DNA from: Spinacia oleracea
Lineage: Eukaryota > Streptophyta > Magnoliopsida > Caryophyllales > Amaranthaceae
Length of the DNA: 64,000 bases
Direction: 5' to 3'
Assembly: GCF_020520425.1 (NCBI RefSeq)
Contig: NC_079491.1
Span: 7,861,143 to 7,925,142 of the forward strand
The translations under genes and the position numbers were made by a program. How positions within the stretch are numbered: the first letter of the stretch is position 1; every line of letters begins with the position of its first letter. Below the pieces are notes generated by a model. The model ran no database searches. It had not been told where the DNA came from and saw only the letters and a list, made by a program, of their open reading frames with translations. Shown here one piece after another: positions 22,138 through 64,000 of this stretch.

Positions 22138-23079
22138 GGTCCTGTTCTTTAGAGTTGAGCTGAACTGAACTGATCGAACTGAACTCAACTAACAGAATAT
22201 ATAACCGAAATAAATAATAAATAATAAATAATAAATAATAAATAATAAATAATAAATAATAAATAATAAAATAATAAATAATAAATAATAAATAATAAAT
22301 AATAAATAATAAATAATAAATAATAAATAATAAATAATAAATAATAAATAATAAATAATAAATAATAAATAATAAATAATAAATAATAAATAATAAATAA
22401 TAAATAATAAATAATAAATAATAAATAATAAATAATAAATAATAAATAATAAATAATAAATAATAAATAATAAATAATAAATAATAAATAATAAATAATA
22501 AATAATAAATAATAAATAATAAATAATAAATAATAAATAATAAATAATAAATAATAAATAATAAATAATAAATAATAAATAATAATAATAAATAATAAAT
22601 AATAAATAATAAATAATAAATAAATAATAAATAATAAATAATAAATAATAATAATATAAAAGGTTAACTAATAACTAAAGAATAATTAATAACTAAATAA
22701 CTATATAATAAATAATAATAATATGTAATTGATACTAAATAATTACAATAAATGATAAATATTAATAATAATAATAATAATTCATAATTAGTAACTAATA
22801 ACTAAATAATTAATACCTAATAATCCGTAACTAATTAATAAAAATAATAAAAATTATATTAATTATTATTAAATAATTAGTTATAAAACATAATAATATA
22901 AATATAAATAATAAGTAATATAATAATATAAATATAAATAATAAATAATATAATAACATAAATATAAATATAAATAATAAGTAATATAATATAATAATAA
23001 ATAATAAGTAATACAATAATATAAGTAATAATAATATAAGTTATATTAATAATATTATTAGTATTATTAATTTTATTAA

Positions 23080-27582: not shown

Positions 27583-28975
27583 CACTACAAGAAAAATCCG
27601 TTTTTGCGACCGACTAAAGTAGTCGCAAAACCCCTAAAAACCGTCGCAAAATTGGTTTTGCGACTGCCGCGACCAAATTTAGGTCAGTCGCAAAAACCCT
27701 TGTCGCAATTCCATTTTCGCGACTATTTTTTGGCTGTCGCAAATTTTGCGACTACTGTGCGACTACACTGCGACTGTCATTTTCGCGACTGAAGTTATAT
27801 TTTTGCGACTAATTGCCTATCCATCGCAAAAGTTTTGCGACTGAATTTGCGAGTGAAATGTCCGTCGCAATTCTGTTCGGAAAAACATAAAAAAAATTGA
27901 AATCAACAGCTAATACCACTGTTAATCTCTTGTTATAATCATACAACCATTTACAAAATATGAGATTAATTTATGATAGAATAAACTTGTAACAAAACTT
28001 AAACTTTATATTTCGTATCTTAGAAAAATTTACAGAAATCAAACATCATAATTAAGGGAAGACAAAACAACAAACAACATAAATAAACTTAAGTGCAGAT
28101 GTAAACTATAGATCTACAATATTGAATTATACGAAGTACAATTTATTGAACTATAGATCTACGATATTACACCAATAACATATCGAAACCAAAATTAAAT
28201 AACTAGATTATAGAATAGTAATAAAACATTTACAATCTATAAGTCTGTTACCAATTTGAGCTAACATAACGAATTAAGAGATCTTAATCTGTCATTTTAG
28301 ACAGATCTGAAGAAAAGAGTCGGCCATGGTAGAGGGGTTGACAGAATGACAGGGCTTCTTCTTGTTTTTCGGTGGAGGGAAAACGAGATGCTGATGCAAA
28401 ACTTAACATCTTCTTCTTAGCATCTTCACCAGATGAAGGAGGTCGTGACTTCAATGAAGTAGTTTACCTTTGGTGATTTTGTTGCATTACGAGCTTTTTA
28501 CTTTGTGGGTTTGTTGCTGCCATTTGTAAGGAGAGAGAGAAACTAGTATATGCTTTAGAGAAGAGGGAGGCGGGTGTAAATGTAAAAATTCTAGGGTTTT
28601 TAGTTTATATGGGTGGGTTAGGTAGAAGAAGGGTGTTAATGACTTAATGGTTTGGGTGAAAACACGTGGGAGGAAATCCGGATAGGATGAAATTTCCTAG
28701 TACACGGAATTTTACTCTATTTTTTTTATAAAACAACATTGCGACTACCAATTTCCGTCGCAACATCGGTCGCAAAATCATTTGCATTTTATTGCGCTAG
28801 CCAAGTAGTCGCAATAGTTATAGGTGGTCGCCATTTTGCGACTACGGAGCGACTACCGCAGTTTCAGTCGCAAATTTTAGTCTCCTATTTTCTTTTAGTC
28901 GCAAAAAATATTATTGCGACTGAAATTTTATATAGTCGCAAAATGTAGTCGCTAAAACCAGTTTTTCTTGTAGTG
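27583..28975. mobile_element. Non-autonomous CACTA element, 1393 bp
   Basis: Starts CACTACAAGAAAAATCCG and ends with the inverted copy (tttttcttgtagtg), flanked by a 3-bp duplication AAA (27580-27582 and 28976-28978). Both termini carry many tttgcgac/gtcgcaaa words in both orientations, the subterminal array of an En/Spm-like element. No transposase frame. Confidence 0.9.
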
Positions 28976-32699: not shown

Positions 32700-32938
32700 C
32701 CCAAATTCTTATATGAGACTGTCCTCACCATCAACTGATGGTGAGACCAGTTCACACTTGCGAATTTAGGTCTGTTACTTCTATAGGTTAGACATGTTAC
32801 TTTTTTTATAATTTTTAGAGGAGGTATTTTTTTTAGTTTAAGTATGTTACTTCTATAGTTTATACACGTTACTTTTTTTATACGGAATACCTTCTTAGTT
32901 TAGGTATGTTAATTACTTCTATAGTTTAGACATGTTAC

Positions 32939-32969
<31 letters not shown>

Positions 32970-33472
32970 AGAGGAAGTACTTTTTTTAGTTTAGGTATGT
33001 TACTTCTATAGTTTATACATGTTACTTTTTTTATACGGAGTAGTTTTAGGGGAGATACCTTCTTAATTTAGGTATTTTACTTCTATAGTATAGACAAGTT
33101 ACTTTTTTTTAATAATTTTAGAGGAGGTATTTTTTCTAGTTTAGGTATGTTACTTCTATAGTTTAGACATGTTACTTTTTTTTATAATTTTAGATGAGGT
33201 ACTTTTTTAGTTTAGGTATGTTACTTCTATAGTTTAGACATGTTACTTTTTTTTATACGGAATAGTTTTAGGGGAGGTACATTTTTAGTAGACATGTTAC
33301 TTTTTTTTATATATATAATTTTAGAGGAGGTACTTTTTTAGTTTAGGTATGTTACTTCTATAGTTTAGATCTGTTACTTTTTTTTTATAGTTTTAGGGGA
33401 GGTACGCTATTGGTTTCACGCTCGTCACACCATCAAGTTGATGGTGTGACTGGTCTCACAGGAGACGCGCTG
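32700..33472. mobile_element. Inner MULE-type MITE carrying a tandem array
   Basis: Inserted in the fold-back element with a perfect 9-bp duplication cttttgtat (32691-32699 and 33473-33481). Inverted subterminal blocks contain caccatcaac and gatggtg. Its core is a minisatellite. Confidence 0.75.
32765..33405. repeat. Minisatellite, unit about 70-85 bp
   Basis: About eight diverged tandem units built on taggtatgttacttctatag, tttagacatgttacttttt and attttagaggaggta. Located wholly inside the inner MITE. Confidence 0.85.
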
Positions 33473-35071: not shown

Positions 35072-35522
35072 GAGAAACTTTTGTGTAAAACCGTCTAACG
35101 GTTAGACCACTTTTTTGGCATTAACTAAACTAGTGTAAAATACAACTAAAAGTAATAAAATCATAACTACTCAGTTTTAGTTAGTAATTGAATAACAAAA
35201 TAGTTAAGGTATAAAGACAAATAGTTAAATTTATGAGTCGAATAGTTATTATTTTTTAACAAACTTATTATTAACTAAAACTCATAAAATCTTAACTAAT
35301 TGATTTCATTGCTTAACTAATCAGTTTTATTGTTTAACTAATTGGTTTAGTGCTTAACTAATTAGTTCGGTTACATAACTAATTGGCTTTGTTGCTTAAC
35401 TAATTGAATTTCAGACTTAACTAATTGGTTTCGGTGATTAACTAATTAGTTAGATTGCATAACTAATTGGTTTCAGTGCATAAAAGTGGTCTAACCGTTA
35501 GACCGTCTTTCCTAAAAGTTTG
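35072..35522. mobile_element. MULE-type MITE with 11-bp target duplication
   Basis: Inverted ends share cgtctaacggttagaccac; the flanks are direct repeats taaacaatata (35061-35071 and 35523-35533). The interior holds about eight diverged tandem copies of a ~26-bp unit based on taactaattggttt (35280-35475). Confidence 0.75.
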
Positions 35523-35533
35523 TAAACAATATA

Positions 35534-38230
35534 TTATATTATAACAGACTTATCATTTCGAAAGGGACCCTAATCCTTAATTTCACCTAGGGCTCCCAAA
35601 AAGTAAGGAACGAGCCTGCTGACATTTTGGCTAAGAATGCTGGACAATCTCCAAGTTGTAATTATGTTAAGAACTTCATTTCGTCCTCTCCCTTGTGTTG
35701 TATTAATGAATTATTCCCTGGTTTGTAATAGCTCCTAATGACCATAGAGGTCGGAATCTAATTTGTACGACGTATCTATGATGGGCACAAAAGTTTAAGT
35801 TAACCTAGCGATCCTTCAAACCAAAAATATAGGTCATAAAATGGTAGTCAAATTCAAAACAAATTAAGGAAACAAAAAAAAAAAATTGTAACACCGGCCG
35901 AAGCAAGCTTATGTGTTGTCTGCCAAAAAAACAAAACATGGACATACGTAAGTGAGGAGTGTGAGATCACCATTCGCTTTCTAAAGTAAGAAGAAAATAA
36001 TATTTGATTTGATTTTTTTTTTTTGACAGTATGGAAAGATGATCAATTAAACAAAGTTATTCCCTTTTTATAACTTTTTGGTTAGATTATGGGCTATGGC
36101 AACGATTATGCAACATTGAAATATAAATAACAAATAATTACTAATTTGAGCAATACATGCTCTTACAAGCTACTTAATTAGAAGACATCTAACATTTACA
36201 GTAAGAATCCCTTTGAAGGGACCTTGATAATCGGACGAACTCACTGTTGGAACTTGAACTTGCAACCTATAAAAATAAACTTTACCTGATCTTTGCACTT
36301 TGCGCTTTGCAATTGGTTAGCGTTTGAGTTACACCACGCAAACTACTATTGTTATGTACAAGTAAAAGTAATAACACAATCCTGTCAAAAAAAAAATTAA
36401 AAATTAAAAAGTAAAAAACGATATCCTAATTGTTGATAATAATTCAAAGCATAATATTTGGATTATCTTATGCGTGAAAAATAAACAGCCAAGCCCACAA
36501 GTATACCGCGGTGTGTAATTGTTTGCCACGACCCAACCGCGGAGTTCACTGCATTGAATGTTTATTAAGCTGCATTACTTGCTTTATTGATTTCTTATAG
36601 ACTAAAGGCACGTGGGTGATTTGGTGGGAGGTCTTGCAAACACATTAAAACTCTTTCCTCCAATCGGTACCACACTATTAGTGGTTATCACAATTTAGGA
36701 ATTGCGTAATTTCCCGTTTACACGGAGTACATATGTACTTATATATTTTCTCTGAAACATTTTTTTTTTCTTGACACATAATATTAACCCTAAACACAAT
36801 ACCTAAACAAAAACCCTAATCCCTATTAGAGATCTGAGCAGTTAGGAGGATTGTGTTAACCTTGGGGGACGTTCGTCACTTGAGAGCCTGTACCGGTAGT
36901 GGCGAAATTCGCTTCTAAGTCAGTGGCCTTCATACCACGACACAATCATTGTAATCCGGAGATTATCAATCAAGTAAAGTTATTAAATTTCTCTTATTTA
37001 TTTGATTTCAATAGCCTTTATTTATTACACTAATAACTCAACGATAAATGGAAAATCAACAGTAACAACTAACACTAACTCCAATGCACCAATATCAGGT
37101 TAATTTGACAATTAGCTTGTTTTATATGTCATATAAGATTTAAGCTATTACATTGTCTAACTAATTTGTGCTCCAATGACTAGCAACTAGCTTGTTATTT
37201 AAATTGGTCTCATTTGTCCCACTTGTCAATTAATTATTTGGCAATTTTTGGGAGCTAGTTGTCAAGCAAATTAGCTTGTTTAATTTGGTGTATTTTTATT
37301 TTATTTCATTTATAAATTCAGTGTTTGCAATATGTTATGGCCCACACTATAAAATAATTCTGGATCCGCCGTTGCACATTAGCCTCTTCCACTTCACCCC
37401 TTTGACATTCAATATTAATTCAACATATAATTTTTATATTTTTTCAACCTTCAAATTACACATATATTTAATTCATATATTACCAAAAATATCAAGTTCT
37501 CACTAATTAAAACTTTAAAAAACATTTGAACAACCACACTATACAACAACACGTTCTTTGAACGGGATCAAAATCTCGTTATCTACTCTTCCATCCCTAA
37601 ATGTTTTCTGGCCCGTATGTCATTTTACGCGGTTATTAAGGAAAATATAACATTACAAGATTACCTATTATTGTACTCCGTATTACTTTTATGTGGAATT
37701 GTTGCTTTTTTATTCCATTTTCACAAGAAAACAAAATAGTTGTAAGAATTTGAGCCAATAGAATTCAAGGAATAAAAATGTCAACTCAGAAAAAATTAAA
37801 AAGAAAATAAATGGAGTGATCATCTTAGACCACCTTAAAAAGAAATTGAAATAATACATAGGTACATAGAGTATACTAAACTTTTTTTTTCCCGCTATTA
37901 TTTGTCTCTCTACATTTCTTAGACCTAATCAAGATGAGCCCGGCCCGCCAACCGGCCCGAAATTTTAAATTTTTTGGACGGGTTTGAGAAACATAAAACA
38001 ACACTTTTTAGTTATAAAGTTGGCCCGGTGGAAAATTGACCCGAAATCCCGGCAATTTAGGCCCGAAATAGCGGGTTTGGGCACAATTTTAGCCCGAATC
38101 TTGACCTGGCCCAACATAACGGGTCGATTTTTTTGCTACAGCCCAGCTCGAACCCGGCAAGGCCCGCCATTTAATCAGGGATTAACATTTCTAAAGATGG
38201 CAGTTAAGTTAGCGTACGATTAATTGGTGT
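35534..38230. other. Intergenic DNA; possible fossil LTR remnant at 36640-36985
   Basis: No host gene. The block 36830-36980 (gagatctgagcag, gcctgtaccggtagtggcg, ttgtaatccggagattatc) resembles LTR leader sequence but lacks paired ends; if so it is a broken fossil. 37590-37745 is a decayed Stowaway-like copy and 37935-38180 holds gggcccg-rich TE sequence related to 5920-6116. Confidence 0.3.
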
Positions 38231-38369
38231 TCGTTGGAACTTGGAAGTTGTAGCAATTTAAACGCTCTAGCATCTTTTCAACTCCCACCATTTCTCCATA
38301 AATATCATACGAGTAGTGCAGATCACTTTTTCCTGAGTCTCTCCCATTCGGCCCCCTTCAAAACTTCAA

Positions 38370-38447
38370 TTACTGTGTCAATTTCCCTAATTCGTTTCAA
38401 GTGTTCAATTACTGTGTCAATTTCCCTAATTCGTTTCAAGTTTACAA
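38370..38447 (+). repeat. Tandem 39-bp duplication in the 5' leader of the F-box gene
   Basis: Two identical copies of the text ttcaattactgtgtcaattt ... tcgtttcaagt lie back to back, ending just before the ATG at 38450. Confidence 0.9.
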
Positions 38448-38449
38448 CA

Positions 38450-39610
38450 ATGGCGGAGCTAAGCGACATCAAGAACACAACATCCAGCGACGAATCATCG
38501 AGTATTCCGGAGGATTTGTTGACGGAGATCTTCGCCAGAATGCCGGCAAAAGCCCTAATTAAACTCAGGTCTGTGTGCAAAGCCTGGCGTTCTATAATTG
38601 ATTCCTCTCATTTCATTTCTTTGCATCTTCAAACCTACGAGAAGAATCTCAACGACAATAATTTGTTAGTATGGAATTGTACTAAACAATCTAAATACTC
38701 TACAAGATATAGTTCTTGCAGTAAAACATTCAAAGAAACTGAATTACTATTCGAGATTCCTGAGAATTGCAATCTACTAGGGAGTTTTTGTGGGTTGATT
38801 TTGATCAAAGATTACTCAAGGGGTGAGATTGAATTGTATAACCCTTTTATTAAAAAATCCGTGTTAATCCCCTCTTGTCCTTTTGAATCTGCACATGTTC
38901 GATATTTGGCGGGATTTGTTCCTTCAAGTAATGATTGTAAGGTGACTGCGTTTCTGGAAACGAATACATTGACGAAACCCGAGGTTTTGATTGCCGTTTA
39001 TTCACTTAAAGATAATCTTTGGAGGATAAAGGATAAGTTGGATATCCACGTTCCAGGGTATTTTAGTTGGCATTTAGGAACTGGGCATATCTTTTTTAAG
39101 GGTGCTATGTACTGGATAGGAGATTTTTACTTCTATCAAGATCAGGCTCTCACCAGTAATCCTTGTCTTGTCTCTTGGGATTTTAATGGGGAGGAATTCA
39201 AATTTGTGGATTTGCCCGATGATGCAAAACTATGTCCTGTTGTGTTTAATTTTCTCCTTTGTAAATCAATGGCCGTTTTCGCTATGTCTTCTGAATGTGC
39301 CTACTACATATGGGTTTTGGTGACGGATGGTGCAGAGAATTCATGGCGGTTTTGGAATTCTGGGTATTCGGATATGGATGTTTTTGGAATTCTAAGAAAT
39401 ATTACTCTTACAAAGATTTATGATGCTGATAACAATATATTTGTCGTACAGAGGAATGGTGAACTTTATTCTTATGATTATGTATATAATAAAATACCAC
39501 AATTGAAAGATTATACTGATGGTCCTGCATTGTTTTATTTGTTTGAGCCCTATGTGGAGAGCTTGATGTTGCACAAAGGAAAACAAGAGCATACTTCCAC
39601 ATTTAACTGA
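38450..39610 (+). CDS. F-box/FBA protein (386 aa)
   Basis: The ATG at 38450 (context acaacaATGG) starts MAELSDIKNTTSSDESSSIP; the open frame further upstream has no ATG and contains a repeated leader. The F-box is at about 19-64 (IPEDLLTEIFARMPAKALIK, RSVCKAWRSIIDSSHF). The FBA domain follows: GSFCGLILIK, LYNPFIKKSVLIPSCP, FKGAMYWIGDFYFY, YIWVLVTDGAENSWRFW and the C-terminal PYVESLMLHKG. It is the only plus-strand F-box gene here and is more diverged from the others than they are from each other. Role by family: SKP1-binding adaptor of an SCF E3 ligase with unknown substrate. Intact, single exon. A GT-containing ggtaagaa at 39639 could start a 3'-UTR intron. Confidence 0.9.
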   Translation: MAELSDIKNTTSSDESSSIPEDLLTEIFARMPAKALIKLRSVCKAWRSIIDSSHFISLHLQTYEKNLNDNNLLVWNCTKQSKYSTRYSSCSKTFKETELLFEIPENCNLLGSFCGLILIKDYSRGEIELYNPFIKKSVLIPSCPFESAHVRYLAGFVPSSNDCKVTAFLETNTLTKPEVLIAVYSLKDNLWRIKDKLDIHVPGYFSWHLGTGHIFFKGAMYWIGDFYFYQDQALTSNPCLVSWDFNGEEFKFVDLPDDAKLCPVVFNFLLCKSMAVFAMSSECAYYIWVLVTDGAENSWRFWNSGYSDMDVFGILRNITLTKIYDADNNIFVVQRNGELYSYDYVYNKIPQLKDYTDGPALFYLFEPYVESLMLHKGKQEHTSTFN

Positions 39611-44159: not shown

Positions 44160-45332
44160 TCAGTTATTATTGTTCACTAGAGTCCTTGTTATACGACGGA
44201 TGTCAAATTCTGCCCTTCGAACATTGGATCCTTTGTGCAACACCATGCTCTCAACATTTGTATCAAATACATAACCCCCGTATGGATAGTCTCCCAAATC
44301 TTGCATTTCATGGCTTGTTAAATTAAACGAATACAATCTTCTCCCTCTCCTTCCCCAACTCTCTATCAAAATGGTATTATTTTTGCAAACATAGAAAATC
44401 CTTGAATTTATAGCCATCCTAAATTCGTTGCAAACAACAAGATTAATATCAGCTGAAAACCATAGCCTCCACGGATCCTTTCCAAGATCCTTTTCGAAAA
44501 CCCATATGCAAAATCTTTGTAAAGACACATCTAAAAGCGCCAAAGATGACTCTCCAAGCTTGAAAACAACCCTAATTGGGGCAATTTGGTTTTTAGATTC
44601 AGGTACTTTTACAAAACTGAATTCTTCAACATCAAAGTCGTACCAGAAAAGATAAGTCTCCCTAACCATACCTTCATATTGGTCACATCCGATCCAATAT
44701 GTAGCCCCTTGAAAATATACATTATTTCTAATGTCGTTTAGAATTATTAAATTCCAAGACTTCCAACCATGCACATCCATCTTATTGGATTTGGATATGA
44801 TCCTCCAATGGCGATCATTAAGTGAATAAATCCATATTGTAAACTCGTTAGCATTTATAAAATCATCTAACATCCGAAAAGCAACCACCTTATAATCATT
44901 GGTACAAGGGCTGAATCCCATAAAAAACATATCGAACATGCATTTGGTATTATTGGAAAGAAAAGGGGGAAGTAGCAATTCCTTTTTAATAAAAGGGTTC
45001 CACAATCTCAACGTCCCTAAACCTATTTTATCAGAGATCAATATCAATCCATTACAACTACCCCAAATCTTGTACTTATAGTCGTTACTTTTTCCAACAA
45101 TTGAATATGGTATTATTCGGTCATCATCGACATTTAACAAGGAAGATTTGTTTAATAAATTTGATCTTCTTGACCGTCTTTGGGTCGCAATGGCGAACCA
45201 ATAAGAATTGTTGTTGTAAAGCTTAATATGCATTAAAGTTAAAGGAGAGGAATCAATTAGAGAACACCAGGTTTTACAAACACACCTGAATCTTAATAGG
45301 GTTTTTACCGGCATTCGCGCCATGACCTCCAT
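44160..45332 (-). CDS. F-box/FBA protein with nonsense codon in its N-terminus
   Basis: From the ATG at 45332 the frame encodes 390 residues: MEVMARMPVKTLLRFRCVCK (F-box lacking its first residues), then GSCNGLILIS, LRLWNPFIKKELLLPPF, FQGATYWIGCDQ, FCIWVFEKDLGKDPWRLWFS and DTNVESMVLHKG. The ancestral start appears to be an ATG near 45412 (MAKTRSTESRTSGK), in the same frame but followed by TGA at codon 15 and then SSEFISIPTESV, the proper beginning of the F-box. The family's first F-box helix is thus cut off unless translation starts earlier by read-through. The remaining ~95 percent is open, so the nonsense change is recent. Function as an SCF adaptor is doubtful but not excluded. Confidence 0.8.
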   Translation of the reverse strand: MEVMARMPVKTLLRFRCVCKTWCSLIDSSPLTLMHIKLYNNNSYWFAIATQRRSRRSNLLNKSSLLNVDDDRIIPYSIVGKSNDYKYKIWGSCNGLILISDKIGLGTLRLWNPFIKKELLLPPFLSNNTKCMFDMFFMGFSPCTNDYKVVAFRMLDDFINANEFTIWIYSLNDRHWRIISKSNKMDVHGWKSWNLIILNDIRNNVYFQGATYWIGCDQYEGMVRETYLFWYDFDVEEFSFVKVPESKNQIAPIRVVFKLGESSLALLDVSLQRFCIWVFEKDLGKDPWRLWFSADINLVVCNEFRMAINSRIFYVCKNNTILIESWGRRGRRLYSFNLTSHEMQDLGDYPYGGYVFDTNVESMVLHKGSNVRRAEFDIRRITRTLVNNNN

Positions 45333-45804
45333 CACTGATTCTGTTGGAATACTGATAAATTCCGACGATCATTTGCCAGAGGTTCGGCTCTCCGTGCTCC
45401 TTGTTTTGGCCATTGTTCCGATCGTCCGCCCTAATTAAACAGACCAACCTATCGATATAAAGGGAGAAGGGATGAGGGTTTCATAGGAAATAAGGTTAGG
45501 GTTAAAACACATATAAAACACATAGTACTATGTGTACTACGTACTAGGTATATGTTTAGAGAGGCATAGAGTTTTTATGAAACTCATCCTTAATTATAGT
45601 GTTCTAATCATATTGAATATGTTGATCAATCTGGTATGCCACCAAATATATCAGATTCACATACCATGAATGGCCATACCGGACCTGTTCGAAACTGTTC
45701 CATCTCTACTAAGGGTACTAATTAGTAATTAAAAATACTTGCTACGAACATTTGATCGATTTACATTGGACCAAAATTCAATTATATGATTACTAATTGT
45801 GCAG

Positions 45805-52582: not shown

Positions 52583-52652
52583 TCTCTCTCCTCTAACCTC
52601 TCCCCAATTCCTCTCTCCAGGATCTCGAATTTGCGGATGACTTCGCCGGAGT
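52583..52652 (+). repeat. Left arm of a perfect 70-bp inverted repeat
   Basis: Starts tctctctcctctaacctctc and ends gacttcgccggagt; identical at all 70 positions to the reverse complement of 63931-64000. The right arm runs off the window, so the true arm may be longer outwards. Best read as a terminal inverted repeat of a large DNA element. Confidence 0.9.
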
Positions 52653-53052
52653 AATGCTAGGTAATGCTAACAAAAAGTAGCCACCCTTGTACACAGAAGC
52701 AAGGTAATGCTACAGTCCATAGATACAAAATTATGTGTATTAAGTCTCCTAACAACAACCACTCGAGTACATTAAAATTACAAGCGAAAAGACAGTATAC
52801 AGTCAATCCAACTATGGGAAAAGAAATGCATATGGTCTACATGCCCTACACAATAAAGTTATAGAACAAGATTTTGACACTTGCTCTTTTTTCCTACAAT
52901 GAAGGCTATCATGGAAACCGACATAAAATCACGTACGCCACACACCTAAAAAATCACAAACCAAAGAAAATTTGATCTTCACTTGACTATTTGATTAACA
53001 CAATTCTAGTTTCTCTATTCAAGAGTTGGTTCTAAAGAAAACAATAAATAAT
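52653..53052. other. Subterminal DNA left of the ABCB fragment
   Basis: Non-coding, 3'-UTR-like. No GAACAT motif array here, in contrast to the right subterminal region. Confidence 0.4.
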
Positions 53053-53253
53053 CTACTCCGCAATGCTTGATGCCTCTGCATATGCATCCTGTATATTCTC
53101 CGCAAGCCTGTGAAGGAATATATTTGAAATTCCTGCTGCTGCAACAACAATTGGCCATGTTGCTAAAGTGATGAGCAAAATCTGGCAACAACGGCTAAAT
53201 CTAACAACAAGACCGCTGAAAAATGTTGCCATGTTGGGGATATAATTATTAAC
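53053..53253 (-). pseudogene. ABC transporter B-family (ABCB6/20-type) exon fragment
   Basis: The minus strand encodes VNNYIPNMATFFSGLVVRFS, then QILLITLATWPIVVAAAGIS and NIFLHRLAENIQDAYAEASS with IAE followed by TAG. This matches the first transmembrane domain of plant ABCB6/ABCB20-like transporters (NMATFFSG, GGISNIFLHRLAENIQDAYA). An acceptor-like gttag precedes the first codon. The TAG stands where the family has a Gln codon. Only one exon of a gene of many exons is present. First of several minus-strand fragments inside the inverted repeat. Confidence 0.85.
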
Positions 53254-53862
53254 CTAACTCACAAAAGCACAAAAAGTTAGAATGAACAATATAAATCACG
53301 TACTTTAATTCATGAAGATATAAAAAAATAAAGAGTAAACTAATGTTGAATAAGCAGCGCATAACTCAAGACTTGGCTACTTATGTCTCCATTGTTTCCA
53401 TATTTGTGAAAGAAACTCATATCCTGAATTAATAAATCTTGTATACAGATGGACCTAATTACAACAGTTTGTCGTTCCCCGTAAGAATCCAACAGTTTGT
53501 CGTTCCCCGTAAGAATCCAACAAAGGCTGATTCAATCACGGAGAAAGAGTGCTCTGTGAATTTATGACCAAAAATCTTCAAGTCAAAATATGTCAAAGAA
53601 ACACAACATTATGTAATCCAAACCACTCACATCAGCATGCTAAACTAAGCATCAAATATTGCACCAAACAACTCAAATAAGAATTATCCTCGGAATTAGT
53701 GGGTACTGGGAGAAAGTCTCCACCAACTTCTGACACTCATAGGAAAGACAAATGGGATGACTGAAAAGGAGAAAGGAAAAGGGAAGAGGAAAAACAACCT
53801 TTTATATTCATCTACACCAAAATTTAAAGAGGAAATCAAAGATGATATTTCTTATTCCTAAC
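53254..53862. other. Spacer between captured fragments
   Basis: Includes a 29-bp tandem duplication (aacagtttgtcgttccccgt twice, 53464-53520). No recognisable exon. Confidence 0.5.
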
Positions 53863-54262
53863 CTGGATTATAATCACCAAAGATTACTTCAGCGAGTGCT
53901 TCACCCCCGGTTTCACCAGGATACCCAATCCAAAGAATTCTAGCAATTCGTGAATCTGCTTCAGCAAACGAGACATCAAGGGGTCCACCCCCAGTGAGGA
54001 CTAATATTATGTGTTTTCTGCTAACAGAAGCGACCAAAGATAAAAGGTCCATCTGTTTGCCAGGAAGAAGAAGAGTAATGCGGTCTTTATCTTCTGTTTC
54101 TTGGGTCAAGTCCAAGCCAACAGTTAAGATAACATAATCAGACATTTCAGCCACAAGGAGGGCTTCATTAAACGTTGAATTGGACTCACAAGCCACATAC
54201 AGACATCCACTAACATAAGTTGTCTTCTTGATGTATGTTTGTAAACCCTCAACATAAGTTTT
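53863..54262 (-). pseudogene. GH3 beta-xylosidase exon fragment
   Basis: Minus-strand reading: [105 protein letters not shown] and GDYNPG. This is the C-terminal alpha/beta domain of plant cell-wall beta-D-xylosidases (family GH3). The exon stops at CCAG followed by gttagg, the natural donor position (GDYNPG|G). It is open throughout. The catalytic nucleophile domain is not included. Its 5' edge is fused directly to an EF-1alpha fragment. Confidence 0.85.
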
Positions 54263-54664
54263 GGGGCGTATCCATTTCCAATCCGGCCAGGGTGGTTCAT
54301 GAGGATGACCTGAGCATTGAAGTTGGTTGCCTCCTTAGCAGGGTCTTTCTTGGAGTCAGATGTCACATATACACGCTTGATATCTCTGTGTCCAGAGGCA
54401 TCGATCACAGTGCAGTTGTACATGTTGGTCTCTAACTTCCACAAGGCCATATCAATGGTAATACCACGTTCACGCTCATCCTTTAGTTTGTTAAGAACCC
54501 AAGCATACTTGAAGGACTCTTGTTCATCTCAGCAGCTTCCTTCTCAAATCTCTCGATCACACGCTTGTCAATACCTCCAAACTTGTAGATCAAGTGATAA
54601 GTGATGGTTGACTTTCCAGAATCGACATGACCACCAAATTACTGATATGAATCTTTTCCTTACC
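54263..54664 (-). pseudogene. EF-1alpha fragment with large internal deletion, fused to GH3
   Basis: The minus strand starts GKEKIHIS-like, continues with [20 protein letters not shown], a frame change near MNKSPS, then [20 protein letters not shown] and [10 protein letters not shown], and jumps to [20 protein letters not shown] and [19 protein letters not shown]. The join removes about 200 residues of translation elongation factor 1-alpha (after GHRD). The initiator ATG is altered. The last codons run without a gap into the GH3 piece. Dead fragment. Confidence 0.85.
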
Positions 54665-54963
54665 CACAATGTCTTCTCAAGTAAAACTACAAACAGAAAA
54701 TAATCAATCGATCAGCACCAATAAACAATGAACAAATTATGTCCAACCATCATACTCTCAGAAATATCATATCCAAAATTGTGCGAAAGATCGGATTAAA
54801 CGAGCAATACTGACAGAGATATCACATACATACATACATAATCACAACCAAACTAAAATTACCAATCAATAAATACAAGATTGATATCTATAGAATCTAA
54901 ATCAATCACAAAACTTTACAAAATCAGCAGAATCATAGCAAAAGTTTGTCCTCAAAAGGAACA

Positions 54964-55036
54964 TGTCAGGAACCAGAATTGAACTGGTGAGTCAATGACA
55001 ATTTTTCCTCTGCTCTACCAACTGAGCTATCCTGAC
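54964..55036 (-). pseudogene. Plastid-type tRNA-Phe(GAA)-like pseudogene
   Basis: Minus strand, 73 nt, folds as a tRNA: acceptor GTCAGGA/TCCTGAC, D-arm GCTC/GAGC, T-arm ACCAG/CTGGT with TTCAATT loop. Sequence is close to chloroplast trnF (GATAGCTCAG, GGTAGAGCAGAGGA, CACCAGTTCAA). The anticodon loop is scrambled (AAAATTG, lacking U33) and the anticodon stem has a mismatch, so no GAA anticodon remains. Nuclear fossil of plastid DNA. Confidence 0.6.
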
Positions 55037-55039
55037 CAA

Positions 55040-55991
55040 TATATGTTTAAACCTATTAACAATTAAAGATAGGTAAAATATTACTCGGAAATCGAGATAG
55101 CTACTCCACTACCAGCACTTAATTCATGATGTTCCTAGTGTATTTCTCCGTATTAAACAACAATTAACATTTTAAGTTGTGATCCGTTTATTTAAATATG
55201 AACATGCAGATCATATAAATCCTACAACAGTGAGTCTTGGCTGAGTTAGAATATTTGGGTACAGAACTTATATCATGTTTTTGTCAGCAAGGCCTGTGGG
55301 ACATCATGCCTTATCACCACAATCCATGTTTGCTACTTCCACTTCTTCAATATAATGTTGCTAAAGCCTAACAAACAGCCTCATAGATCGAAACACATGG
55401 GAATAAAATTGTACATAAGACCGTCGATTCATCATTAAAAAACATAACTATATAGTGAAACTTGTAATTAATTTAATTAGAAAATATAACAATCTGATTA
55501 GAAATTAAGTGTACCTATTTAATTAATTAATTGTAGAGTATAACTATTTGATCACAATGTGTAACTATTTTATTTTAAATACAACTATTTATCAAGAAGT
55601 TGGTCTTATACACAAGATCTGTCATGTATAAGTTTTTGTATTTTCGGTATCCCAAACTCTTTATTTTTGGAATGACATTTTTCGTCTTGTAATCATCCTA
55701 ACAGAACAATGTATCATAGAGGCATAGACAAACCAGTTCATATTTCTTTCATCTTTGACCAGGCTAAACAATCAAACTGTCTTAAGAATGTCTATTCAGA
55801 TAATGTTTGCTGTTACTAAATAACTGCAACAAGAAGTCAGTGCCTTTGAGAAAATTTCCAACTGGCCACAATATAAAAGAGATTAGCAGATTTGTTTCTG
55901 TGTTGTTTCAAATTGAAACAACAACCTACAGACAAGGGATTATAAAACATAAAACTGAAGCAATCAGATCAGAAAAGCAGAATCAATGTTT
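55040..55991. other. Spacer between tRNA-like sequence and CYP704 fragment
   Basis: AT-rich, no recognised exon. Confidence 0.4.
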
Positions 55992-56508
55992 AGTTAACAC
56001 TTACATGAATGTATAAGATGTCATTTGCCTTAGAAATCTGCGAAATAATCCTGACAAATTTTGCAGCATTTCTTCTGAAAACACAGCTGAAATCTCTCAA
56101 TACCCGAGCTGAGAACTCAAATCCCGAAAGATTCCTCTGCTGCCTCCACTTATCTCCATCAACAGGAACGATTCCTTCCCCAAACAGACCAATAAGTATA
56201 TCTCTATTATACTTGCCTTTCGCATACTTATCAAAGCTTGTTTTCAGAATGTTTTTTATGTTTCTGACATCAGTAGTGTAAAATTCACTCTGGTCTGGCG
56301 CTAACAGCCGAAAGGTGGGATGTCTTCTAGCAGTCCCAGTTTGTTGATCATACAATTTATTGAAGTAGAACAGTTGGTGAAAGATTGTTCCCTTTACTGG
56401 TGGATAGTTTGGACTGCGAATAGACTAACCGGAGAAAGTTTTGATGAATACAGCAAGAATAAATACAAATATCAGCAAAAGTGCAGACGTTATGAAGGCG
56501 AAAATGGC
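55992..56508 (-). pseudogene. Cytochrome P450 CYP704-type first-exon fragment
   Basis: After an acceptor-like ttttcag the minus strand encodes AIFAFITSALLLIFVFILAV (membrane anchor), a TAG shortly after FIKTFSG, then PNYPPVKGTIFHQLFYFNKL, ARRHPTFRLLAPDQSEFYTT, NILKTSFDKYAKGKYNRDIL, GLFGEGIVPVDGDKWRQQRN and FEFSARVLRDFS. This is the N-terminal part of a CYP704C-like fatty-acid hydroxylase family member. It ends at a good donor (cat|gtaagt). Heme-binding FxxGxRxCxG and the I-helix are absent. Captured or duplicated exon. Confidence 0.85.
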
Positions 56509-56510
56509 TG

Positions 56511-57213
56511 AAAACAAATCCGTATTCTTTTATCAAGATCAATTATTCCATGATTGTCGTTGATAATAAGCTAGAAGTTTATCTTCTGTTGCAAATTTAG
56601 AAGTTTTTAATTAGTCATAGATCCCAACAACTCTGAGAAAGCTAAAAAGCACAACCATCAAGTATAAAAAATAGTACTTCTATGATTGACAAATATCTAC
56701 TGAAAACTTGGGATGTAATCATCATTTCAAAATAGCAGGTAAATTAAACTCTTATACTTATTACCCTGAGTAAACATGCTAAATCAAATGTAGTCCAAAT
56801 TATTGCCCAAAATTCAAGGTTAATGAGTTTGAATTAAGGAATTGATCAAAAGACTCGCTAAATGTTTAGAAAATAAGTTTTGTATCAACCTACCACTTAA
56901 CTTTAATATATTAACATTATGAAGATAAAATGCAGGTTCAACCACTGTTCATTTGAATCATTTCATGACATAATTTATCATGGAAGCCCTTGACTTACTA
57001 AAGTTTAAAGAATACACATTATCACCAAATTAACCATAAGTCAACTCTTACAACATGATAACACAGCACACAACCTAAACCTTCCATCCAAGATGAATTG
57101 GTTCCCATCGGATATCATTTCCGACTACAACAAGCTCAATACCTAACATTTCAACAAATCAAAACAATGTTACCAACAATTTCCCCCAAAATCCAACAAA
57201 ATTTATAACGAAC
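56511..57213. other. Intron-like spacer
   Basis: Non-coding AT-rich DNA between the CYP704 fragment and the leader exons; no recognised exon. Confidence 0.4.
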
Positions 57214-57589
57214 CTGAAAAGTTAGGAGTCGATATCTAAACAAACCCACCACCACCCCGCGACCGCTTCTTTGTCACGGCTCACCGAATGCTACACGGTC
57301 AAGGGATCGCCGACATCACCCCCCGTCCATTTCTCTGTACACAATTCGGAAATTAGACCCAAATAATCAACAAATATACAATCTTTTAGTAGCTAAAAAC
57401 CCTAGATCACTCCTCCAAATCTAAACCCTAACCCAGAAATCATGACATGGAAGGTGCGACTACAACTTAAATAACAGATTCCAATCACCCACATACTATA
57501 CATCAAATAAGTAGCAAATATAATTTGGAATTCGACCATAAAATATGCAATAATCTCTTACCAAATGGAAGATCCGTCTCCGTATACAT
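57214..57589 (-). other. Two-exon leader with a 23-codon spliced frame
   Basis: Minus strand: ATG at 57589 (MYTETDLPF), donor at 57562 (ttg|gtaagag), acceptor at 57335 (gtacag), then in phase EKWTGGDVGDPLTV and TAG at 57291; a second donor (cag|gttcg) follows at 57213. This looks like a genuine 5' gene end with short coding start or uORF. I do not recognise the parent gene. The upstream leader continues to about 57850 and then, beyond a 3.15-kb MULE, to a TATA box at 61098. It is placed to drive transcription across the minus-strand fragments to its left. Confidence 0.45.
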
Positions 57590-58243
57590 GGCTGACTCTC
57601 TATCAGTTTGCTGTCAGAAATTCGGTAGGAGACAAATCTTCCAAGGTATCCTTCAAATGGAAAAAACGCCATTAATTCGAAAGAAAAATATCAGAGAGGA
57701 TAGAATGGAAAGAAGAAGCCTTGCAAAAACTGAAAAGGTTGGTTGAGAGGAGAGAGAAATATCTACCATGGTCACATGGTGACTTGGTGAGGGACAACTT
57801 CTCTGGTTAGAGAGGATCGAGTAAAGATGAAGAAGAAGGGTGAGTAAATTCTGATTAAGAGTAAACTGTAGTGAAGGTCCCTAAACTTTGCCAAAAGGAG
57901 TAGTTAGGTCCCTCAAGTTTTAAAAGGAGCATTTAGGTCCCTCAAAATGGATGGAAAACGCTGCTTTTTGTTTTCCGTCATTAACGGCCGTTAAAATGAA
58001 TATAATAATATTAAAAATTATTAAAATAAAAGGAGAATTAATATACACGTAGATTAATGATTGAAAACAGATGATTTTGATGAAAAGAAGCCTTTTCCAA
58101 TTACTTAGAGGTTTCAACTTACTTTTTCAATGTGTACACGTGGAAACCTTCCAACTTCTCTCGGTTTTTCTGGTTCCTTCCTAATAATGTTTTGGCGGTA
58201 ATTTTTTACTGTTCCCAACCCTATTTCCCCCCTTTTCACTTCC

Positions 58244-58252
58244 TATTTATAT
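58244..58252 (+). promoter_or_regulatory. TATA-like box of the plus-strand cargo gene
   Basis: tatttatat lies about 100 bp upstream of the ATG at 58350 in a C-rich promoter-like context. Confidence 0.35.
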
Positions 58253-58349
58253 GGTCCCCCCCCATTTTCACTCTCAGTTGTCTTTTTGCCATTTACTCAC
58301 TCAAACACTTAAGAGAATTTGAAGTTATTACTCTGAGTTTTCTGCAAAA

Positions 58350-59587
58350 ATGGGTTCTTGCGTATCAGGAAAGAGGACTGCTGATAAGTGGGAATGTCGC
58401 ACCCCCAAGAGAACAAGAATTTCCAGATGGGACGAAGGTATTTTCATTCAATTTGTCGGTTTTTTCAATAAATGTTTGCAGTTGAGCCATGATAAATTAG
58501 GGCTTTTTTTGTTAAGTAACTTTTTCCCAAAATTGGAGCATGCATTATCTTGATTGTGGTGTTTTATATGTTAATTTAAACAATCGTGGGCTGATTTTGC
58601 ATAATTTATCAATTGAAGTTGGAATTAGGGTTTCGTCCGTTTTTACTTTCCAATATTTAATTCGAATTGATGCTTGCATGTTCTTGAAAATGGTGTTTAA
58701 TATGTTAAATTATACAATTGTTGCGTAATTTGGAATTAATTTAAACTAGATTTTGTAGTAATTAGGGTTTCACTTACTGTTTTTGATTCACTTAAATAAA
58801 AAACAGAGTTTGATTAATTCGAATTGATGCTTGCATGTTCTTGAAAATGGTGTTTAATATGTTAAATTATACAATTGTTGCGTAATTTGGAATTAATTTA
58901 AACTAGATTTTGTAGTAATTAGGGTTTCACTTACTGTTTTTGATTCACTTAAATAAAAAACAGAGTTTGATTAATTCGAATTGATGCTTGCATGTTCTTG
59001 AAAATGGTGTTTAATATGTTAAATTATACAATTGTTGCGTAATTTGGAATTAATTTAAATTAGATTTTGTAGTAATTAGGGTTTCACTTACTGTTTTTTA
59101 TTCACTTAAATAAAAAACAGAGTTTGATTAATTCGAATTGATGCTTGCATGTTCTTGAAAATGGTGTTTATTTAAACTATTGTTTAATTTGGAAGTATTT
59201 TAATCTAGATTCCGTATAATAATTAGGGTTTCTTAATTTACTGTTTTATTGACTTTGGCCGTTACTTTGACTTTAGGAGACCTTGCTTTAAGGGAGGCAC
59301 ACCCCCTTTGCCATCATCAAGACATCCTCATCACCCAGATCTTCACGAAGCTGGACTGGGAGGGGCAGGCTGCTGTGCAGATGGTATGCAAGCAGTGGCG
59401 TAGGTGGGCCAAGTTGCGGTACCGCCTCCCATACCACTACCCTCAAGGATGCTACCGCGCGTGGCTGCGGGAGTGGGTGATCATGGACATCATTGACAAT
59501 GATGGCCGTGACTTCCACGCCTGGATGGACAAGGACATGACCGTCTACTTTGACGGCTTCCCCCTCCTTTTCAAGGAGGAGGAGTAG
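58350..59587 (+). CDS. MULE cargo gene: small two-exon protein with F-box-like segment (132 aa)
   Basis: Exon 1 58350-58437 starts MGSCVSGKRTADKWECRTPK and ends GACGAAG|gtattt; exon 2 59277-59587 starts after actttag. Joining restores frame: ...RISRWDEGDLALREA. Residues about 42-75 (HQDILITQIFTKLDWEGQAA then VQMVCKQWRRWAK) resemble an F-box (ILxxIFxxLDWxxxxxxxxVCKxWR). The N-terminal MGSCVS fits an N-myristoylation signal. The tail is YHYPQGCYRAWLREW, DNDGRDFHAWMD, ending FKEEE. Exon 2 is strikingly GC-rich against AT-rich surroundings, suggesting capture from another gene. The 839-bp intron consists mostly of a 157-bp tandem repeat. No family recognised beyond the F-box-like segment. Exons are inferred from splice consensus and phase; a relic of a larger gene is possible. 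Confidence 0.55.
58664..59215. repeat. 157-bp tandem repeat in the cargo-gene intron, about 3.5 copies
   Basis: The text gaattgatgcttgcatgttc recurs at 58664, 58821, 58978 and 59135, a constant spacing of 157 bp, with only a few substitutions between units. Confidence 0.95.
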
Positions 59588-59989
59588 CTGGTGGTGGAGG
59601 CCATGCAGGGGTGGGTGGTGGTGGCGCTGGTGGTGGCCCCTCTTTTGTCAAGCTTATGATGATCCAGCTTGTTTATAGCTTTTTTTATTTTTAATTTTCA
59701 AGGACAATTACATTACTACTGTCATTGCACACCCCCTTTACTGTACTGAAGCCAACTTGTTCCTAATTTGTTTTAATTAATGCAGCCTATATCACAACAC
59801 TTCCCCACACCACAGAGGCAAAGACCTCCTGCAGCTTTCTATTCTGATCATGGGGGTGAGCAAACCATCTACTCCTTCCCTGCACATGACTTCCCATTGT
59901 CACAGACTCAACCAAGTCAAGGACACACAATATCAAGCCAAGCATTGCAGGATCTTGCAATGGCTAGAAGATTAGAAAAAAGACCATGA
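59588..59989 (+). pseudogene. Low-complexity tail, perhaps remnant of a MULE transposase C-terminus
   Basis: Just after the stop at 59587 another frame encodes AGGGGHAGVGGGGAGGGPSF; then after an acceptor-like aatgcag (59783) comes QPISQHFPTPQRQRPPAAF, ..., SQTQPSQGHTISSQ, ..., MARRLEKRP and TGA at 59987-59989. Gly-rich plus Gln/Pro-rich C-termini are usual in MuDR-like transposases, but no catalytic residues are present and the link is an inference. It could also be a 3' alternative exon of the cargo gene. Confidence 0.3.
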
Positions 59990-60053
59990 GGTTAGATTTT
60001 ATTGAATTTAAAGTCTTCATTACATTTCATTAGTGCAGATCATTACATTTTAC

Positions 60054-60500
60054 CTACCCACTTAACCCACTTAACTTAAAACAAACCAGATAAAAAAAAA
60101 ACAGAACCACTAGGATTACAACCCACACTTCACATTTCACACTAATAGGTCTTCTCATCTTGCTCATCACATAGTCTGCCTCCCTCTTCCTTGCATAATT
60201 GTTAGCTTCACTAAGTTTTGTCCTAAACCTATCAACTTCAGCAGCAAGGCTTTGTTTATCTTGCATTAACCCTAGTATGACAATTGTTTGCCAAGTTGTT
60301 GGTTCTTGTTCATCAATCCATCTAAAAAAAATGCAACCCCTTCTGTTTGTTTCAACATCATAATCTGGACAAGCAATGAACCTCCTTCCAGGATTTTCTT
60401 TTGTCCATGCCTTTTGAATGGATACTGTGAATCCACAGTAGCACCTCTTAGGGTGTTCATTATCACCATTGTTGAACAAAGAGATAGCCCTGTTCATCAT
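60054..60500 (-). CDS. MULE cargo gene: GRF zinc-finger protein with C-terminal membrane anchor (148 aa)
   Basis: ATG at 60500: MMNRAISLFNNGDNEHPKRC. The GRF-type zinc finger spans about 20-62 with C20, C22, C44 and C56 and the defining NPGRRFIACPDYD ... GCIFFRWID. Residues 75-115 are charged and helical (coiled-coil-like), and 125-141 (WVVILVVLFFFYLVCF) form a single membrane segment. GRF fingers bind nucleic acid; plant proteins of this short finger-plus-coil-plus-TM plan are common and uncharacterised. An acceptor-like tttgcag precedes the ATG and a donor (aaaaag|gtattt, about 60601) lies upstream, so a non-coding first exon near the right TIR is likely. It is convergent with the plus-strand cargo gene. 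Open and undamaged. Confidence 0.75.
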   Translation of the reverse strand: MMNRAISLFNNGDNEHPKRCYCGFTVSIQKAWTKENPGRRFIACPDYDVETNRRGCIFFRWIDEQEPTTWQTIVILGLMQDKQSLAAEVDRFRTKLSEANNYARKREADYVMSKMRRPISVKCEVWVVILVVLFFFYLVCFKLSGLSG

Positions 60501-61097
60501 TCTGCAAATAAATTACGTTTTAATAATTATTTCCTAAATATGTTAATTATTGTTAAAATAAGCTAACTTAAGATTTTTAAAAAAATGACAGAAAAATACC
60601 TTTTTGTTGAGAAGAGTCAGCTATGGTGGAGCAACAGAGAAAAAACACAGAGCAGAAGATGGAGAAGAAAGATTTTTTTTTTTAAGTGTTTTATTGTTGT
60701 TTTGTTGGCCATGGAATGTTAAATACTCTGTTTTTTGAGAGCCTCAACGGCTATATTTCTGTAAAAAGCTAACTGAAATGAATTTCTCTTTATTTAATTA
60801 TTGGTAAATGGTAAATGTAACTGTTTTTTTGTCGTTTAGTGCCTTTTATTTAGTTTCCTTTTAATTTAATTGAATTTTAACGGCCGTTAGTGACGGAAAA
60901 CAAAAAGCAGCGTTTTCCATCCAAACGCAGGGACCTAAATGCTCCTTTTGAAACTTGAGGGACTTAACTGCTCCTTTTGGCAAAGTTTAGGGACCTCCAG
61001 ACCTATTTACTCTTCTGATTAATGATGTAGGAAAGAGGAAAGAGGAGGAAGGTGGTGAAACGCCAAGTGGGGAAAGAGGAGCTGAGTCAGTGATACC

Positions 61098-61103
61098 TTT
61101 ATA
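61098..61103 (-). promoter_or_regulatory. TATA box of the minus-strand leader
   Basis: TATAAA on the minus strand within ccttataaagg, followed by a CT-rich leader-like stretch (cctcctctttcctctttcc) that continues across the MULE insertion into 57850. Fits the promoter of the chimeric minus-strand unit. Confidence 0.4.
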
Positions 61104-61415
61104 AGGGCATTTTTGCCCGTACACTATTCTTAAGAGAATTCCTCGTTTTTCATGAAGGATTTTAGGGATATTGTAGCCATTAGTTAAAATATCAATTGCC
61201 ATGTTTTGGCTTTTAAAAGGGTAGAGATAAACGGATCACGTGGGTTTATTTTATTTTTTGTTTATGGAATGACGGGCAAGTCAATGATCAGTAACTAAAT
61301 TCTCCTCCAAGTTACTTCTTGAAACATTAGTACTAGCTCTTGTGCCATGCCCAGATTTTTGGCTGTATACCTATGCATGCAGAGTTGGGTGGATATGAGG
61401 TTTTTTAGACATCGT

Positions 61416-63320
61416 GAAACAGTTAAAATTGAACATGATGATAAAAAAAAATGAACATGAAAAAAATATCATTCTTCATACTTATCTTTTGAGAAATAAT
61501 ATTTAGACTAATTAAATAATATTAATTAATATATCAAAAACTCTAGTACGTCTGCACAAGTTTAATCACTACGCTACATTTCGGTAGAAAATTATTATTC
61601 GGAAAATAAACAAATAAAAAATATGAACATTGATGAATCTTTTTCTTCTTCTATTTCCTCTATGTTTCTTTCTCTCTCATCTGCAACTTTTCTCCATCTT
61701 AATAGTTCTTATTTTCCCTTCTTCGTCGATAAATTTTCTACCACCAAATGCAGACGGATTGAGTTCACCAACTTCTCCTCCACTTCTTCTCCGATTCTGT
61801 CTATTTTCCTCCTTGTTAAATTCTGAAAATTGAACATAGAACATTTTTTTAATTAAAAATGAACTTGACATGATATCAAACATAGTATGAACATTAAATT
61901 TCTAAAACTGAACATTGAGTTTTAAAAATTGAACATAACTAAGAATAATAGGTGATTTTGTTTAGAAACTAAAAAAAACCTATTACTAATTTAAACACAT
62001 TTACTCCAGAATCGAGTATTAAATATTTTAACAATAATTCAAATTTACAAACCCAGATATATATGTGAACATGAGACTTAAGAAACTGAACATCACACAA
62101 AATTATTGAAAATATATTGAATTTAGTTGAACATGATTCTGTGTAAATTGAACATAAGACTTGAGAAACTAAACATCACACAAAAGTCTTATTTATGAAC
62201 ATATCATAGTTTAATAAGTTGAATTTAGTTGAACATGATTCTTTATAAGTTGAATATGAGACTTGAGAATCTGAACATCGCACAAAAGTGTTCTTATGTG
62301 TTCTTATTTATGAACATCATATTTTAGAAGTTGAACATGATGAACTATAAACTGAACATGACAATATTTAGACATCGCTACTTTTGATCTTTCAGTAAAG
62401 TGAACATGAATGTGTACATAATTCTTTATAAATTAAATATGATATGTAAGAAACTGAAAATCACACAAAAGTATTGAACATATATTAGTTTTCCAAAAAA
62501 AAAAATATATTAGTTTTCCGCATTCCAATCAACTAACCAAAAGCTCGCAACAAGGAAACAATTCCAAAAGATTAAGAAGCAAATATATTAACTGCTCTCT
62601 TTTATACAAGGAGGTGGCAAATATATGAACATTATTCTGTATAAGTTGAACATAAGACTTGAGAAACTGAACATGACACAAAAGTGTTCTTATTTATGAA
62701 CATATCATAGTTTTATAAGTTGAACATGGTTCTTTATGTTGAACATGAAACTTAAGAAACTGAACATCACACAAAAGTGTTATTATTTGTGAACATCATC
62801 TTTTATAAATTGAACATGGTGAATCATAAACTGAACATGACAATATTTATACAACGCCATTTTTGATCTTTTAGTAAAGAATAATGAACAGGTGCTAATT
62901 ACTGTTATGGCTAGCCTTTTAGTCGAACATGATTTTGTACATAATTCTTTATAAGTTGAACATGAGACTAGAGAAACTGAACATCATACAAAAGTTGAAC
63001 ATATATTAATTTTTTAAGTTAAGGTTAGTTGAACATCATTTTATATAAGTTGAACATAAAAGTTGAGAAAATGAACATTCCACAAAAGATTGAACATATA
63101 ATAGTTTTATTAGTTCAATTTAGTTGGACATGATTCAACATAGGTTGGATAAGAGAGTTGAAAAATTGAACATCACTCAAAAGTATTATAATTGATTTCA
63201 TTAACAATATTAATTTGAACATCTATTGTTACAATTTGAACATGACAAATTTTGAACAAACCACTTTAGATCATTATGTAAAAATAATGAACATCATCTT
63301 ATAAAATCTGAACATGATTA
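61416..63320. repeat. GAACAT motif array, about 43 copies in 1.9 kb
   Basis: The hexamer gaacat, mostly as (t)tgaacat(g/c)a, occurs about 43 times by hand count, nearly all in one orientation. Longer recurrent phrases include aactgaacatcacacaaaag and tataagttgaacat, giving a loose higher-order repeat. No coding frame. The array lies between the promoter of the minus-strand unit and the right inverted-repeat arm and has no counterpart on the left side. Confidence 0.9.
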
Positions 63321-63349
63321 AATTTCAAAGTCACAACAGAAACATTTGA

Positions 63350-63930
63350 CATACTTGCACAACTTGCACACCGAAGCTAGGTTTACTTTCATAGAGTTCA
63401 TCATTTCCAAGGTATTCACCAAAAAAAAAGTAAGTAACCTAATCTTATTCAAAAAAGCAGGTAAACTAATCGTATTCACCAAAAAAAGAGTAAGTAAACT
63501 AATTATGAAGAAACGAGAATGTAAATTAACACCTGCTATGGTCTCATCGGCGAATCTTCAAATCAGTTCGAAGAACAACTCGGTATCATTCTCAACGGAG
63601 TTAAAAAGACGATCCAAAATAATTTTCATCAGCTTCACGTTTACCGACATGGATCTCTTTAATATCACCTAGAACCTTCCGGTTAACTCCACGGCGAACC
63701 CTAGCGTAGGTAGGAAGCCTCTAAACCGCCTCCCAATGAAGCGCCTCTTCATCTTCTTCTCCAGCTCAAAACGACTCCGATCTAGCAAACGCGTTCTCCG
63801 ACGTCGTTCTTTGAACTGTAAAAAAATCAAACCGAAAATACACAACATCAACAAATTACACAATAAAATAACAAAATTACTCAAAATAATCAGAACATAG
63901 GGCAATATTCATCCGTAAATTACACTCTGA
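63350..63930 (-). other. Right subterminal region with a candidate spliced leader exon
   Basis: Minus strand: an acceptor-like ttttttacag near 63819 precedes an open stretch encoding FKERRRRTRLLDRSRFELEK and FRGFLPTLGFAVELTGRF, then stop (63669). Highly basic and unrecognised. If the 70-bp repeat is a TIR, this could be the first exon region of a transcript starting in it. Plus-strand frames at 63346-63672 show no known domain. Confidence 0.3.
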
Positions 63931-64000
63931 ACTCCGGCGAAGTCATCCGCAAATTCGAGATCCTGGAGAGAGGAATTGGGGAGAGGTTAGAGGAGAGAGA
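63931..64000 (-). repeat. Right arm of the perfect 70-bp inverted repeat (cut by window end)
   Basis: Reverse complement of 52583-52652 at every position; begins actccggcgaagtcatcc and continues past the last base of the window, so the element's outer end and its target duplication cannot be seen. Confidence 0.9.

Follow-up and report, generated by a model that had tools for sequence, protein, structure and literature searches.

Motif arrays in described repeats and transposons

Short motifs multiplied in tandem within noncoding transposon DNA have been described for the VANDAL elements of Arabidopsis, in which, according to Hosaka et al. 2017 (PMC5735166), the targets of VANC proteins build up in tandem within introns and in upstream regions. 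That source gives YAGTATTAY as the motif bound by VANC21 and AGTTGTCC and AGTTGTAC as the motifs found for VANC6. VANC-target noncoding regions are described by Sasaki et al. 2023 (PMC10398659) as also being targeted by RNA-directed methylation. The array considered here consists of GAACAT copies at positions 61416-63320 of the window, i.e. the whole stretch of 64,000 nucleotides of Spinacia oleracea DNA that was analyzed. It resembles the VANC targets as presented in PMC5735166 in that a short motif is tandemly multiplied in apparently noncoding DNA of a transposon. Its motif is a different one, however, and Pfam detected no VANC domain in this copy of the element. VANC target arrays are further characterized by protein binding and a local loss of CG methylation. 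In the account of PMC6446971, VANDALs have either no terminal inverted repeats (TIRs) or short degenerate ones, with some relatives in the Brassicaceae possessing TIRs; the large element around the GAACAT array, in contrast, has perfect arms.

Three further systems bear a partial likeness. In the subterminal repeats of CACTA elements, too, a short word recurs many times close to the end of the transposon, but such repeats occur at both ends and in both orientations, whereas the GAACAT array is found at one end, in one orientation and in a 21-bp register. The minisatellite BvMSat05 of Beta vulgaris has an AT-rich unit of 21 bp as well, with monomer identities reported down to 38% (PMC2820488). 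Its monomer has another sequence, and the same source describes head-to-head junctions in BvMSat05, whereas the GAACAT array keeps a single orientation. Short interrupted repeat cassettes (SIRCs) of Arabidopsis are portrayed in PMC10342631 as short direct repeats amid diverged DNA that often lie within mobile elements; they contain 2-8 repeats of 10-29 bp in that description, whereas the core here measures 6-7 bp and recurs 43 times in tandem register. In two published repeats that contain GAACAT, the word occurs once per longer monomer (39 and 173 bp), unlike the GAACAT array.

GAACAT recurs in one orientation and in a 21-bp register

The initial annotation of this DNA had reported about 43 copies of GAACAT, mostly in one orientation. 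Exactly 43 were counted on the plus strand of 61416-63320 and none on the minus strand. The number and the one-sidedness were thus confirmed, and "mostly" gave way to "wholly". Sequences generated by Markov models that had been built from the array itself (300 for each order) contained on average 1.5 GAACAT (maximum 5) for the first-order and 6.3 (maximum 17) for the second-order model, as compared with 43 in the real array. When the whole 64-kb window was scanned for clustered 7-mers, with low-complexity words excluded, TGAACAT proved to be the most clustered of all (41 copies versus 0.30 expected). Strand counts, Markov models and the 7-mer scan rule out a chance origin of the excess. When the array was compared by BLAST with both strands of the entire window, no match beyond it was revealed.

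The spacing had initially been regarded as irregular, like that of protein-binding sites rather than that of a satellite. Exactly 21 bp, however, separate successive GAACAT copies in 16 of the 42 gaps, whereas no single gap size (among spacings of 7 or more) was seen more than 6 times in any of 5000 random placements. Tandem Repeats Finder, which overlooks badly worn arrays, reported a 21-bp repeat of 2.3 copies over just 49 bases (61888-61936) and, in addition, a tandem sub-array of 2.6 copies of 95 bp on the plus strand at 62935-63184. Two families of direct repeats, one of 93 nt with 7 copies and one of 62 nt with 9, extend in register through the array. On a larger scale, a higher-order block is present twice on the plus strand, at 62128-62400 and at 62626-62879, the two copies sharing 82.6% identity. 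The array accordingly contains duplications of about 95 bp and of about 480-500 bp. Gaps, Tandem Repeats Finder, in-register families and blocks all identify it as a degenerate tandem repeat, so that the contrast drawn initially between binding sites and a satellite fails.

The feature is best delimited as a degenerate minisatellite array at 61416-63330 on the plus strand, with a 21-bp register, the core TGAACAT and 43 exact copies of GAACAT; its units are arranged head to tail and fall into the range of roughly 10-100 bp that characterizes degenerate minisatellites. The 43 copies of GAACAT are explained by an old tandem repeat that has become worn. Additional helical phasing, on top of the 21-bp unit, was set aside on a mere look by eye at the gap list. 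A coding repeat is unlikely, since no stop-to-stop frame that overlaps 61416-63320 exceeds 86 amino acids, the length of the longest, and six-frame Pfam analysis of 61015-64000 at E values up to 0.05 yielded no match. To judge from these frames, the array looks noncoding. A structured RNA family was likewise discarded as a candidate, no Rfam match at the gathering threshold having been obtained anywhere in the window.

The host element and the origin of the array

The array sits between two arms of 70 nt that are 100% complementary to each other. The one at 52583-52652 forms the inner portion of a terminal inverted repeat; the one at 63931-64000 is truncated by the window, and about 620 bp separate it from the end of the array. 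Because this right arm reaches the final base of the window, the large element shows neither its true ends nor its target-site duplication, and a CACTA terminus would be out of view as well. Including a nested element, the large element spans at least 11.4 kb. Between its arms, gene fragments were recognized by Pfam on the minus strand: a C-terminal fragment of glycosyl hydrolase family 3 (GH3) at 53858-54334 (PF01915, E 1.8e-23), an elongation factor 1-alpha (EF1-alpha)-like fragment at 54124-54528 (PF00009, E 2.3e-09) and, weakly, a cytochrome P450-like fragment at 55990-56424 (PF00067, E 0.0019, with 17.5 bits falling below the cut-off of 22.8). The GH3 and EF1-alpha fragments were found again in a six-frame Pfam scan of 52583-57500, in which stops were read as X and E values up to 0.01 were accepted. 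Neither a transposase nor a VANC domain was detected by six-frame Pfam searches of 52583-57500 (E up to 0.01) and 57501-64000 (E up to 0.05).

Pack-MULEs are characterized in PMC6446971 and PMC3310237 by long inverted arms around host gene fragments. A target-site duplication of 8-11 bp is another mark of the class. The large element likewise combines long terminal inverted repeats, here cut by the window, with host gene fragments and has no transposase detectable by Pfam. It differs in that its outer ends and target-site duplication are out of view and in its size, to which the nested element contributes. With its inverted arms and gene fragments, the large element looks like a Pack-type TIR transposon, and it is probably Mutator-like, as far as its superfamily can be inferred. 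A search of IMG/VR for relatives of the 70-nt arm, the unit and the end of the nested element returned 0 matches, and a pattern of three cores retrieved 10 stretches, which by eye were unrelated short repeats; three alignments to the array covered 21-28 bp. As IMG/VR consists of viral contigs, these results say little about plants. Inside the large element, ARAGORN predicted a tRNA-Ile (AAT) at 54964-55036 on the minus strand, a position without an Rfam match at the gathering threshold.

The nested element occupies 3.15 kb of the large element (57859-61012). Its ends are inverted arms of 141 nt (57857-57997 and 60874-61014) with 89% complementarity, and it is flanked by TTCTGATTAA at 57849-57858 and 61013-61022, which constitutes a 10-bp target-site duplication. 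An open reading frame on the minus strand (60054-60512) encodes a GRF zinc finger (Pfam E 1.1e-06), and six-frame Pfam analysis of 57501-61014 with E values up to 0.05 returned this domain alone. At 58657-59170 the nested element also harbors a 157-bp repeat in 3.3 copies that are nearly identical, with one reverse-strand GAACAT in each.

Our preferred reading, to which we assign a probability of roughly 0.58, is that of an AT-rich minisatellite, degenerate and decayed since its formation, which lies close to one end of a non-autonomous TIR transposon with gene fragments. Slippage or unequal exchange would have produced head-to-tail copies of a 21-bp unit with TGAACAT. The multiplied units would then have been duplicated as larger blocks of about 95 bp and about 480-500 bp, and the duplicated array may finally have decayed through substitutions and indels. 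Directly visible in the array are its tandem register, its duplicated blocks and its single orientation; slippage or unequal exchange is suggested by general knowledge of such repeats.

Where the array came from is a separate matter, and here we tentatively consider an origin that is compatible with the minisatellite reading, namely that the array is a captured host satellite or intron and irrelevant to the biology of the element. Such a capture would fit an element that already carries fragments of two or more host genes, and PMC8978399 describes satellite arrays near the 3' end of CACTA elements in Chenopodium. On the other hand, the window lacks a further occurrence of the array that would point to a host source, and within a single element copy captured host DNA is inseparable from a sequence that the element had from the start.

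Wear of the core and candidate binding arrays

The wear of the core was compared with that of its flanks at homologous places that were chosen by flank identity alone (60% over 30 bases per side, the tested hexamer being excluded), because a choice by the motif itself was to be avoided. The comparison covered 61870-63330 and thereby 38 of the 43 GAACAT sites, of which 36 had complete flanks. At the 60% threshold, GAACAT was retained in 88 of 138 comparisons, whereas eight flanking hexamers summed together were retained in 180 of 1396. The core was retained in 134/223 comparisons at a threshold of 55%, in 48/75 at 65% and in 24/43 at 70%, where the best-kept flanking hexamer reached 16/50. A BLAST-based contrast (101/133 versus 406/2264) is biased by motif seeding and carries no weight. 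Even wear over the unit is the neutral prediction, although it is no strict requirement for the minisatellite class, and the GAACAT array appears to depart from it. Neutral repeat simulations were run with simple models of our own making (n = 1500), and 410 of them were comparable to the array, i.e. showed similar flank wear and provided at least 40 comparisons. Among these 410, the observed core retention was attained in 3 and the observed ratio of exact to one-mismatch copies (38:13) in 1. Core retention divided by flank retention, 4.9 in the real array, was unremarkable against a first set of 175 simulations, whose maxima ranged from 3.7 to 10.5 with the mutation rate.

Aligned blocks of the array provided a second view. 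Of the two longest block pairs, one had substitutions at 2/70 core positions and at 23/181 positions outside (p = 0.012), the other at 3/63 and 35/158, respectively (p = 0.0009). For the three shorter pairs, the p values were 0.008, 0.027 and 0.40, the last belonging to the one pair of the five without a difference (2/21 in the core versus 10/65 outside); the five pairs overlap and so are non-independent, and gap columns, of which 7 lay inside the core in one pair, were excluded. CACAAAA was also well kept, with 0/14 and 2/21 substitutions in the two long block pairs. Under our models, the core is kept somewhat better than neutral wear predicts, and the array is poorly fitted by plain neutral decay alone. 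Within this one copy the core wears more slowly than its surroundings, and as the cause we infer either a general property of repeat renewal or weak constraint.

Two arrays elsewhere in the window served as controls. One is a degenerate 22-bp array at 32765-33405 with GTTACTT 15 times in forward and 0 times in reverse orientation, the other a degenerate 21-bp array at 35272-35483 with TAACTAA 10 times forward and once reverse. The latter overlaps a small inverted-repeat element with arms at 35075-35134 and 35462-35521. Both lie outside the large element and have different cores, and both are similar in build to the GAACAT array. By the flank-anchored measure, TTACTT was retained in 82/87 and TAACTA in 30/34 comparisons; in the 22-bp array some flanking hexamers were well kept too, up to 55/101. 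Block pairs of the control arrays gave 1/42 substitutions in the core versus 18/135 outside, 0/28 versus 6/115 and 0/32 versus 23/51. The controls are thus as unevenly worn as the GAACAT array. Because they behave likewise, a slow-wearing core is not peculiar to the large element, and the core retention of GAACAT is suggestive rather than special. Either slow-wearing cores are usual for such repeats here, or all three would be binding arrays. By eye, a short palindromic sequence resembling an inverted repeat was seen on both flanks of the array at 32765-33405. The array at 35272-35483 has the core TAACTAAT in 9 exact copies.

A maintained binding array, in which selection keeps the TGAACAT core while tandem duplication supplies new copies, is possible, but we regard it as rather unlikely. 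Its putative binder would be either a transcription factor of the host or an anti-silencing factor of the VANC type encoded by an autonomous relative. The slower wear of the core in retention, simulations and block pairs is consistent with such an array, as is its apparently noncoding nature. Since VANC targets are themselves presented as short motifs that became numerous in noncoding DNA through the formation of tandem repeats (PMC5735166, PMC10398659), the tandem build is no argument against the VANC analogy, and the same kind of motif accumulation is found in the GAACAT array. Several results point the other way. Six-frame Pfam analysis of the element brought up no VANC-like or transposase domain, and VANC protein domains (DUF1985/DUF287) in particular had no match in six frames across 52583-64000 of this copy. 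Published VANC motifs are absent from the array, both YAGTATTAY and AGTTGTMC occurring 0 times on either strand. In addition, the two arrays outside the element retain their cores similarly, and CACAAAA is another well-kept word. The array's AGTTGAAC, present in 9 copies, differs by one base from AGTTGTAC, a likeness that we take as coincidence.

The proposal in the initial annotation that the array could be the target of an element-specific or host factor therefore finds an echo in the slow-wearing core, but not in any VANC or transposase domain or VANC motif, and the control arrays behave alike. The comparison with VANC holds for the tandem, noncoding character of the targets and breaks down at the motif and at the missing VANC domain of this copy. 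By analogy, a VANC-type system in the large element is conceivable. If the retained core were a binding site, VANC-like targeting of motif arrays would appear to be a more general strategy among plant DNA transposons. If it is no binding site, a striking one-sided motif count can arise from an ordinary worn minisatellite, and core retention alone is a weak sign of function.

The idea can be extended to the DNA transposons of this genome as a group: their arrays of 21-22-bp tandem units would have differing cores of 7-8 bp preserved by selection (TGAACAT; GTTACTT; TAACTAAT) amid drifting surroundings, each with a putative factor of its own, in the manner of diversified VANC-like targeting. We consider this improbable. 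Targeting of that kind would lie in TIR elements, possibly outside the Brassicaceae.

The window also provides a positive control for subterminal sites, namely a complete short CACTA element of 1393 bp (27583-28975; CACTACAAGAAAAA...TTTTTCTTGTAGTG, with AAA on both sides) that carries GTCGCAA 12 times in forward and 7 times in reverse orientation with irregular spacing. That the GAACAT array represents subterminal transposase-binding repeats of the CACTA type, and hence a putative transposase assembly site, is very improbable: its end does come within some 620 bp of a TIR element's right arm, and the window includes a CACTA element bearing such an array, but real CACTA subterminal repeats are described in PMC8978399 as occurring at both ends, direct and inverted, whereas GAACAT is arrayed at one end only, in a single orientation (43 forward versus 0 reverse) and largely in a 21-bp register, with 2 forward copies and 1 reverse copy in 52653-57856 and none within 52653-54000.

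Elsewhere in the window, the long open reading frames at 3493-4632, 8169-9416, 38213-39610 and 44160-45368 are presumably F-box-like, to judge from their translations, and the stretch at 22209-23036 consists of about 118 copies of the 7-bp repeat AATAAAT.
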